From Aporhodopirellula rubra (GTDB lineage Bacteria > Planctomycetota > Planctomycetia > Pirellulales > Pirellulaceae), in assembly GCF_014192335.1 (NCBI RefSeq), contig NZ_JACHXU010000010.1, forward strand, positions 163,816 to 227,815: a DNA stretch of 64,000 nt. Reading direction: 5' to 3'. Position 1 is the first letter of the stretch, and each line of letters opens with the position of its first letter. The position numbers and the translations under genes are program-made. Below the pieces are notes generated by a model. The model searched no databases. It saw only the letters and a program-made list of their open reading frames with translations, and was not told the DNA's origin. Shown one piece after another: positions 5,496 to 51,597 of this stretch.

Positions 5496-5549
5496 GTGGA
5501 TGGGAACGCGAGGTTAGGGAGCGAGATATCCCGGAGGGATCGAAAGATA

Positions 5550-5581
5550 GTAGCCGGTGGCGAGCGAAGCGACTCCACCGG
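5550..5581 (+). repeat. REP hairpin, left flank of RAYT (GTAG foot)
   Basis: GTAG at 5550-5553 is followed by a 7-bp stem, ccggtgg (5554-5560) paired with ccaccgg (5575-5581), closing a 14-base loop cgagcgaagcgact. The same loop, with its last base changed, occurs in the hairpin at 50955-50988, whose stem differs but still pairs. Confidence 0.8.
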
Positions 5582-5647: not shown

Positions 5648-6091
5648 ATGTCCACCTTTCATAGCATCAATCTGCACGTCACCTTCTCCACAAAATACCG
5701 CAAGCCGTATATACGTGACGAATGGATCGAACGCTTGCACGGGTACCTTGGTGGCACCGTAAACCAATTCGGTGCGAAGCCAATCAAGATCGGTGGCGTT
5801 GCAGACCACGTGCATTTGTTACTCGGCGTGAAGCCCGTTCACCAACTCTCCGAGTTGATGCGTGAATTGAAAAAGTCATCGAGCAAGTGGGTTCATGAGT
5901 CGATAGGCTGCAAAGCGTTTGAGTGGCAGGAGGGATACGCTGGGTTTTCGGTCAGTCCACCCGCGTGTTCTTCGGTGTCGGCTTACATTGCCAATCAAAA
6001 GGAGCACCACCGCAAGCGATCGTTCCAGGACGAGTTGGTTTCGATGCTCGAGAACGCCAATATCGAATGTGATCCGAAGTATCTCAGGTGA
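5648..6091 (+). CDS. REP-associated tyrosine transposase (IS200/IS605-like Y1 transposase)
   Basis: This 147-residue protein is a complete Y1 HUH transposase of the TnpA-REP type. The HUH motif is ADHVHLLLG (His54 and His56). The catalytic tyrosine is Tyr113 in AYIANQKEHH, with the expected Gln117 on the same helix, and the WQEGYAGFSVS segment before it is characteristic. These enzymes cut single-stranded DNA at REP hairpins carrying a GTAG tetranucleotide. The ATG at 5648 immediately precedes the conserved HSINLHVTFSTKYR strand, so longer upstream starts are unlikely. The gene lies between two REPs in inverted orientation. It appears intact, with no frameshift or missing catalytic residue. 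Confidence 0.9.
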   Translation: MSTFHSINLHVTFSTKYRKPYIRDEWIERLHGYLGGTVNQFGAKPIKIGGVADHVHLLLGVKPVHQLSELMRELKKSSSKWVHESIGCKAFEWQEGYAGFSVSPPACSSVSAYIANQKEHHRKRSFQDELVSMLENANIECDPKYLR

Positions 6092-6137: not shown

Positions 6138-6173
6138 CCGGAGGTGCGCTGCTTCGCCGCGACCTCCGGCTAC
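6138..6173 (-). repeat. REP hairpin, right flank of RAYT (inverted)
   Basis: An 8-bp stem, ccggaggt (6138-6145) paired with acctccgg (6162-6169), is followed by ctac (6170-6173), the complement of the GTAG foot. Read on the minus strand it is a REP in the opposite orientation to the one at 5550. Its counterpart at 51092-51121 has the stem ccgtaggt/acctacgg, a compensated base change. Confidence 0.8.
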
Positions 6174-6379
6174 TATCTGTAACCGCTTCGCGGTGTTTGG
6201 ATTGACGTTAGCCGGCGGAGTCGAAGCGTCTTCGGGAATGATGTTGAGAATGATCGCGGGGGGATGCGCTGTTTACAGGTGTTGTATTTCGTTAGATTGG
6301 TTGCGTTGATTGGAATCTAGCTAGGCACGGAGTGCCGGTACAATCACTGCGGGGGTTGCCAAACCCCGGGACGATGTGA

Positions 6380-50540: not shown

Positions 50541-51261
50541 AACAACCATATTGCGTCATTGATGGGCTGGCGCCGGCCAGCGGGGGATCGTGTTAGGCAG
50601 GAAGCAATTGGGCAGCGGTCTGGCAAACAGGATTGGTGGCCGTCGCTACTGCGCGACGCTCGTGACTCGATTCGCAGTCGTACTGTTGTTGGTATTCTGC
50701 GATATCAATGAACCTACGAGGTCTCGTCGCAACATCCTCTCGCGTGAAGTGAAATTTGTCAAAGCACCTGAGCCTGGAACCGTGTCGCGAGAGCCTTTGC
50801 GGCCGCGTTAGCGCTAGGATTGAAGGCATAAGCCGCAGGGTTTATGCGGCGGGGTTGACCGGCTGTGGTGCGGTCAAAGCATTCGTTGGTCGGCGGCACC
50901 GGCCGGAAGTTTTGGCTAGCGAGGTGATTGAGTGCGCCGAAGGCGTTTCAGACAGTAGCCGGCAGTCGAGCGAAGCGAACACTGCCGGATCCATGGAACA
51001 GACGGTCAATCGACCCCGAAGGTGGTCGCACCGGCGCCACGCTGGTTTCTGCAACCCTGTTCGGGGTCGACGCGATTTCGTTTTTAGGTGTCCGTAGGTG
51101 CGCTGCGCGACCTACGGCTACTTTCTAGAACGCCTTCGGCGTGAACGGGCTCGTGAGGACTCAATCGCTCGTGGCGAGTTTGAGCTCGTGACAACAAGCC
51201 CTGACGCCGTTTGGGCGCTGGATTCACCAGTGACTCTGGCAGCGTCCTTATCGAAAACGTG
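50541..51261. other. Intergenic region hosting a REP/MITE-like element
   Basis: No gene is supported in these 721 bases. The part from 50935 to 51146 is the palindromic element listed separately. A separate hairpin, cataagccgcagggtttatg (50829-50848), lies just left of it. The remainder carries no recognised feature. Confidence 0.55.
50935..51146 (+). mobile_element. MITE-like, transposase-less relative of the RAYT locus
   Basis: The order matches the RAYT locus at 5528-6195: a small hairpin (gcgccgaaggcg), then GTAG (50955-50958) and a stem ccggcagt (50959-50966)/actgccgg (50981-50988) with the loop cgagcgaagcgaac. An internal cccgaagg...ttcggggtcga follows, then the inverted hairpin ccgtaggt (51092-51099)/acctacgg (51110-51117) with ctac (51118-51121), and a final hairpin with cgccttcggcg. 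About 0.5 kb including the transposase gene is missing. Stems differ from the other copy but keep pairing. Confidence 0.72.
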
Positions 51262-51597
51262 TTAGCGTGCGTTGAGCTGTTGTGCTCGCGCCATCGCGTC
51301 TTCGGCTTTGCGGATGTACTCCTGGTCTTGGGTGCCGGCCCAGGCTTTTTGGTACGTGACGCTCATCGCGGTGAAGTTGAAGGCGTCCTCGGGTTCGAGT
51401 TCGCAGACTCGTTCGCCGTGCTTGACGGCTTTTTCGTGGTCACCGGTTTTGGTGTAGACGCGTGCGAGTGCGAGGTGCGCGAGCACGAACGTGTCGTCTT
51501 CGCCGAGGATCTTTTCGAGTGCCGCGGCGGCTTCGTCGAACTTTTCGTCGTCGATCAGTTTTTCAACGTCGTTGTATTGAGCGTGAATGTCAGACAT
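51262..51597 (-). CDS. Small TPR-repeat protein
   Basis: The 111-residue protein consists of about two tetratricopeptide repeats: KFDEAAAALEKILGEDDTF followed by VLAHLALARVYTKTGDHEKAV, then HGERVCELEPEDAFNFTAM, SVTYQKAWAGTQDQEY and a final AEDAMARAQQL helix. It has no signal peptide or other domain. TPR proteins act as scaffolds; the partner is unknown. It follows ppdK on the same strand, after about 150 bases containing two hairpins that probably terminate ppdK, so it likely has its own promoter. Confidence 0.82.
   Translation of the reverse strand: MSDIHAQYNDVEKLIDDEKFDEAAAALEKILGEDDTFVLAHLALARVYTKTGDHEKAVKHGERVCELEPEDAFNFTAMSVTYQKAWAGTQDQEYIRKAEDAMARAQQLNAR

Follow-up and report, generated by a model that had tools for sequence, protein, structure and literature searches.

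A REPIN-like element of Aporhodopirellula rubra with a RAYT-type core, probably spread as the passenger of a Tn5-like MITE shell

The window, i.e. the 64,000-nucleotide stretch of Aporhodopirellula rubra DNA that was analysed, contains a gene-less element of 212 bp and a RAYT-type gene, the latter flanked by the same two-hairpin units as the element (Table 1). The element is an inverted pair of units with a central stem between them, and each unit comprises, in order, a short-looped 5-bp mini-hairpin, a stretch of about 8 nt, an NTAG foot and a REP hairpin whose stem is 7–8 bp long. Its two REPs, REPa (CCGGCAGT) and REPb (CCGTAGGT), are unlike each other; like those of REPINs, they are NTAG-footed and lie in inverted orientation. 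Folded as ssDNA, 50932–51143 reached −60.2 kcal/mol, far below its shuffled versions, which averaged −39.9 (sd 3.4; z −6.0; 0/200 shuffles). The 33-nt TAG+REP stretch had itself as its sole match within the window (0 expected), and a search of 50800–51300 against Rfam at E 0.1 gave no match. The homologous unit is wider than the stretch marked in the initial annotation and spans roughly 50909–51167.

Table 1. Features of the element and of the RAYT-type locus in the window.
Feature	Position	Strand	Basis
Degenerate left outer terminal repeat (shell), expected register	50909..50934	+	Own-genome family register; single copy not significant
Left mini-hairpin CGCC-GAA-GGCG	50935..50945	+	Sequence; paired across copies
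GTAG foot of REPa	50955..50958	+	Sequence
REPa hairpin CCGGCAGT...ACTGCCGG	50959..50988	+	Sequence; covariation
Central stem, left arm TCGACCCCGAAGGTGGTCGCA	51010..51030	+	20 nt identical upstream of the G005 RAYT gene
Central stem, right arm	51050..51070	-	Matches sequence flanking the window RAYT gene on the right, 0/2000 shuffles
REPb hairpin CCGTAGGT...ACCTACGG	51092..51117	-	Sequence; covariation
CTAC (inverted GTAG) directly after REPb	51118-51121	-	Sequence
Right mini-hairpin	51131..51141	-	Sequence
Probable degenerate outer repeat on the right (rc CGATTGAGTCC...)	51142..51167	-	By eye; weak family-level register
RAYT-locus left unit: mini-hairpin ATCCC-GGA-GGGAT, GTAG 5550-5553, REP CCGGTGG...CCACCGG	5528..5581	+	Sequence
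RAYT-type gene, 147 aa from ATG; motifs DHVH, WQ, YIANQKEHH	5648..6091	+	Pfam, NCBIfam, motifs
RAYT-locus right unit: REP CCGGAGGT...ACCTCCGG, CTAC, mini-hairpin ACCGC-TTC-GCGGT	6138..6194	-	Sequence

The protein encoded by the RAYT-type gene matched Pfam Y1_Tnp (E 7.8e-23) and NCBIfam IS200/IS605 (64.8 bits, cut-off 55), and is thus a Y1 transposase. The claim that the ends of the element match this locus was borne out, as both halves, hairpins included, scored above every shuffle (0/2000 each). With the T and REP hairpins left out, the two-locus alignment held for the right block AACCC-ATTCGGGGTCGA (0/2000 shuffles) but not for the left 'cccgaagg' block (156/2000 shuffles). The element and the window RAYT locus are alike in build and different in their stems, and the central arm is matched on the right side only. 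A better match was found at the RAYT locus of G005, a genome of the same genus, which is 71% identical to that of the window and carries 20 nt of the central arm upstream of the gene, letter for letter (0/2000). Because of the flanking units, the right-side match and this 20-nt arm, the core of the element appears from its sequence to be RAYT-locus-like DNA without the gene, and it may descend from a RAYT locus from which the gene was lost.

The motifs DH[IV]H, WQ and Y-x3-Q-x2-HH, by which TnpA-Y1 subclass 1.2 is recognised (Quentin 2018, PMC6006769), are all present in the RAYT protein of the window, and Y-x3-Q-x2-HH, the mark of this subclass, was present in 33/33 RAYT-type loci examined. 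The table of the same paper gives subclass 1.2 as being without REPs and mainly from Cyanobacteria and Bacteroidetes. In contrast to that entry, the RAYT gene of the window carries two NTAG hairpins, and such hairpins were found within 600 bp in 24/33 RAYT-type loci (64 hairpins; 0.8 expected), the flanks of the short loci L069, L082 and L087 being taken from the locus ends. The mini-hairpin accompanied 60/64 of these hairpins (0.0 expected), and 36 control pieces of the window contained no NTAG hairpins. Among the named homologues, 70/80 of which were examined, such hairpins were found at 23 loci including 5/9 from Planctomycetota and 10/38 from Bacteroidota, the latter with 18 hairpins where 1.55 were expected. 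The hairpins in these named genomes (L276–L355), often with the mini-hairpin, thus stand beside subclass-1.2-like genes outside Planctomycetota too. With the combination of mini-hairpin, NTAG and REP beside subclass 1.2 genes, a protein group that has been described as REP-less gains a concrete substrate. Separately, three equal-scoring RAYT-type genes were noticed about 1 kb apart in another genome (G002:C1:6437933-6440367), a possible tandem amplification.

Many copies of the element are dispersed in the genome, as is typical of REPINs, and the suggestion of a multi-copy non-autonomous element was thereby confirmed. The window's genome contains 10 other near-full-length places (153–205 of 212 query positions aligned, 72–82% identity), and the search also returned shorter pieces and half-elements. 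Three of these 10 copies form one tandem array (G000:C13:30360-31491, G000 being the window's genome) with a unit of about 460–475 bp. At least 22/98 related genomes, own included, match the element at E 0.001 when the best 8 or fewer candidates per genome are scored. In G008 a counterpart of copy L006 occupies the same locus, its flanks being about 77–85% identical in the longer matches, so the insertion of L006 predates the split from G008. Apart from the tandem-array and shared-locus copies, the flanks differ among the copies of the window's genome. The genes flanking the window copy were found in G008 and G012, where the interval between them is 77 bp and 508 bp, respectively, against 705–714 bp, and could not be aligned; the corresponding interval of copy L008 in the sister species likewise does not align. 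Clean empty sites as a proof of insertion were therefore dropped, the intergenic DNA of the sister species being unalignable.

The pairing of the stems across copies was examined with column shuffles, which ignore the relatedness of the copies. In the left mini-hairpin and REPa (41 copies from 7 genomes; L009, L124, L141 and L146 excluded beforehand), 98.9% of the cells were paired and 33 were double-changed against a shuffled mean of 9.7 (0/500). In REPb (40 rows; L005 and L153 additionally excluded), 91.6% were paired, with 19 double-changed cells against 6.3 (0/500). There was no signal in the further pair types of the left mini-hairpin and REPa (480/500 shuffles as high), nor in the number of double-changed pairs (77/500) or the further types (45/500) of REPb. 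The double changes are confined to two pairs of REPa, three of REPb and three of the mini-hairpin, all of the last coming from the single row L153. Palindromes can stay symmetric through template-switch repair, and since such palindrome-correcting repair could give the same pattern, covariation by itself is not proof that the fold is under selection. The covariation first noticed between the two loci is thus real, although limited to few pairs, and it is consistent with a maintained fold; the stronger statement that it implies selection on the folded form is not proven.

In G005, G001 and G012, all of the same genus, similarity between the copies was found to run past the mini-hairpins into 19-bp terminal repeats (CTGTTGATTACCCACAAGT), which form a shell around the core. 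The repeat was counted 170 times in G005, and a reversed-pattern control gave 3. From this genome 20 places were fetched, of which 16 were core copies with both ends within the set limits, and these were bordered by a perfect 11-bp direct repeat in 6/16 and by a 10/11 match in 2/16; the match was 8–9/11 in three copies and 6/11 or less in five. Direct repeats of 10/10 were present at three copies of G012 and at L146 of G001, and one of 11/11 at L155 of G001. They lie inside GTAG-tagged palindromes, GTAGTGGACGAGGCGACGAGTCC in G005 and GTAGTGGATCTTGTGAAAGATCC in G012, and the uninterrupted target palindrome (1 mismatch or fewer) was found 204 times in G005 and 107 times in G018, a genome of a sister genus, with none in the control. 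The sequence of the direct repeats varies between copies and agrees within a copy, as seen for ctcgttgcctt at both sides of L126. In a permutation of left and right repeats among 19 mixed G005 copies the observed concordance was reached 1/20000 times; the same test in G001 (1590/20000) and G012 (859/20000), with 4 copies each, was not significant alone.

These repeats bear on a model in which the element has no mobility of its own and was spread with its flanking DNA by recombination or segmental duplication, its symmetry being kept by template-switch repair rather than by selection. The tandem array of three own-genome copies and the copy at the same locus in G008 would agree with such a history. 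The differing flanks of the remaining copies and the target duplications in relatives, variable between copies and concordant within them, make it highly improbable.

A second MITE of about 255 bp in G005 (L157, L164, L167 and L173) has the same shell ends around a different palindrome-rich interior. The direct repeat was a perfect 11 bp in 4/4 of the copies compared, and three more copies recognised by their ends had a 10/11 match in two cases and none in one. As two MITE interiors share one shell and one scar, the shell is the moving part. The core, on the other hand, is not tied to one shell, because copies without the shell and copies with another terminal repeat were both found. When up to 5 mismatches were allowed, paired shell repeats were found at none of 8 loci of G050 and 6 loci of G010, with one stray match in L137, and the G050 copies end near the mini-hairpins. 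In G040 the core was present at 8 loci (L268–L275), 5 of them with a pair of a different terminal repeat, GGGCGCATCC...GGATGCGCCC, which bounds a longer unit. Some of these units sit in GTAG-tagged palindromes, and direct repeats of about 8–9 bp were seen by eye in some.

A likely source of the shell was found in G018, where the Tn5-type DNA-binding domain PF14706 matched at 18 places. All of the 17 places examined contained an IS of 1543 bp whose ends differ from the shell by 0–1 mismatches and which is inserted in palindromes of the GTAGTGGAC|GAGGTTACGAG|TCC type, with a perfect 11-bp direct repeat in 15, a 10/11 match in one and 6/11 in one. Its protein belongs to the IS4 family (IS4_3, NF033590; 361.9 bits, cut-off 160) and has an IS4/Tn5 DNA-binding domain. 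The G005 units therefore have the terminal repeats of an autonomous IS together with its GTAG-tagged palindromic target and its 11-bp duplication, as known for MITEs; in G012 and in one G001 copy the duplication is 10 bp. The ends of IS50/Tn5 are a known comparison, although the Tn5 duplication is 9 bp and that seen here 10–11 bp. Of an autonomous partner in the same genome, also usual for MITEs, the window's genome contained only one relic of the G018-type IS, a 113-bp end that matches at 88% and lies in the target palindrome as well (GTAGTGGACGAGGCGACGAG). PF14706 had no match in the window's genome, G009 or G012 and matched 6 fragments in G005, and no DNA relative of the G018 IS was found in G005 (40/97 candidates scored), G001, G012, G009, G008 and G010. 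The G005 pairs of terminal inverted repeats 1–4 kb apart (L156 and L157) enclosed no useful transposase. An IS4-family gene in L176 of G005 was considered as the transposase of the element and rejected, as it has different ends (CATAGGCATCAAGTTAAG) and sits inside a REPb hairpin. IS4-family elements with these IS231-like ends were seen within REP hairpins of this family, 4 nt from the stem base, in G005 (L176 and L184–L188) and G026 (L183); both junctions of the G026 element were seen, with a 22-nt repeat having one mismatch, and those in G005 were single or rearranged.

Traces of the shell were also present in the window's genome at the level of the family. The left flanks of 9 unique copies, compared with CTGTTGATTACCCACAAGT in the G005 register, gave 78/171 identities (0/5000 shuffles) against about 40 at most other offsets, and the right flanks of 7 copies fitted weakly (44/133; 82/5000 shuffles). 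Taken singly, only L009 stands out. The left shell of the window copy, with 9/19 matches, is not significant alone, and no direct repeat was seen around this copy, so its carrier has to be read from the family. Around the other copies of the window's genome, too, direct repeats were not readable.

These results together suggest that the element is probably a REPIN-like, RAYT-type core that has spread as the passenger of a Tn5-like (IS4-family) MITE shell. The core has the build seen beside the RAYT-type genes of the clade and is enclosed by the MITE shell; a DDE transposase of Tn5 type, supplied in trans and working on the 19-bp ends, would have cut and pasted the whole unit of about 255 bp with the REP pair on board, and the window copy would be an old, decayed insertion of the shelled family. 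Such a history has to accommodate the poor shell of the window copy and its missing direct repeat, the weak right register, the 8/16 G005 copies below 10/11, the absence of an intact partner from the element-bearing genomes searched and the shell-less copies of G050 and G010.

The proposal that the RAYT protein moves the element in trans is left unsupported by the shells and 10–11-bp repeats of G005, G001 and G012 and by the match to the Tn5-like IS. In that model the protein encoded at 5648–6091, or a close relative, would excise and insert a REPIN-type element as ssDNA through its NTAG-REP ends. The units of the same build at 24/33 RAYT-type loci, the central-arm sequence common to the core and the RAYT locus and the G050 copies, which end near the mini-hairpins, argue for it. 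The known IS200/IS605-type HUH reaction is free of target duplication, however, and a REPIN moved by a RAYT should have none, whereas many copies in relatives lie between 10–11-bp direct repeats in the palindromic target. Furthermore, G012 contains shelled copies and its best RAYT-type match is only 36% identical to the window gene, and G050 has no RAYT-type match at E 1e-20. We thus consider movement of the element by the RAYT protein unlikely; its action on the bare core is possible, as the G050 and G010 copies lack the shell.

A two-step history, in which the bare core was spread by a RAYT, a Tn5-like MITE captured one copy and the spread of the shelled form then followed in this genus only, is a real though lesser possibility and is compatible with, not opposed to, carriage by the MITE shell. 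It draws on the shell-less copies of G050 and G010 and on the different terminal repeat that surrounds such a core in G040; against it, no RAYT-made insertion was caught among the copies analysed. A further possibility, though less likely than not, is that one short element bears sites for two unrelated transposases, the outer for a DDE enzyme of Tn5 type and the inner NTAG-REP sites for an HUH RAYT, with REP pairs riding genus-specific DDE shells that themselves home into other REPs. If so, given the Tn5-like shell in G005, G001 and G012 and the other one in G040, REP populations could spread without their RAYT.

The element is real and of more interest than a plain REPIN, but it is no evidence for a RAYT as the mover. 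It is not settled how REP pairs spread, and transposition by RAYTs has been hard to catch; here the copies of a REP pair bear readable scars of another enzyme, which opens the carrier to a direct test. The case also warns that shared hairpins should not be taken as proof of movement by a RAYT. In the literature outside subscription journals and preprints, we found no description of a Tn5-like MITE with a REP pair in its interior.

For R. baltica, Di Nocera 2013 (PMC3733652) mentions several families of REPs as well as many genes for tyrosine transposases that are flanked by repeats. As outlined there and in Bertels and Rainey 2011 (PMC3116915), REPINs and RAYT/TnpA-REP systems share with the present element the inverted NTAG-footed REPs, the structured spacer and a RAYT-type gene with flanking REPs; unlike in the REPINs of these accounts, a 5-bp mini-hairpin is added upstream of each REP foot, and in this genus the pair is enclosed by a shell of DDE type that is bordered by target duplications. 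ISRm22, an IS4-family element that inserts into REPs (Tobes and Pareja 2006, PMC1525189), is similar in its IS4-family transposase, palindromic REP target and direct repeats, and differs from the unit described here, in which ends of this sort belong to a MITE that has no gene and carries REPs as cargo. Similar in layout are the GTAG-15 dimers of Anabaena variabilis, REP dimers that lie regularly inside a longer conserved inverted repeat; the lines given to them in Di Nocera 2013 (PMC3733652) tie that outer repeat to no transposase, whereas here the outer repeat corresponds to the ends of a Tn5-like IS, and a REPIN core enclosed by a MITE shell of this kind is a new variant.
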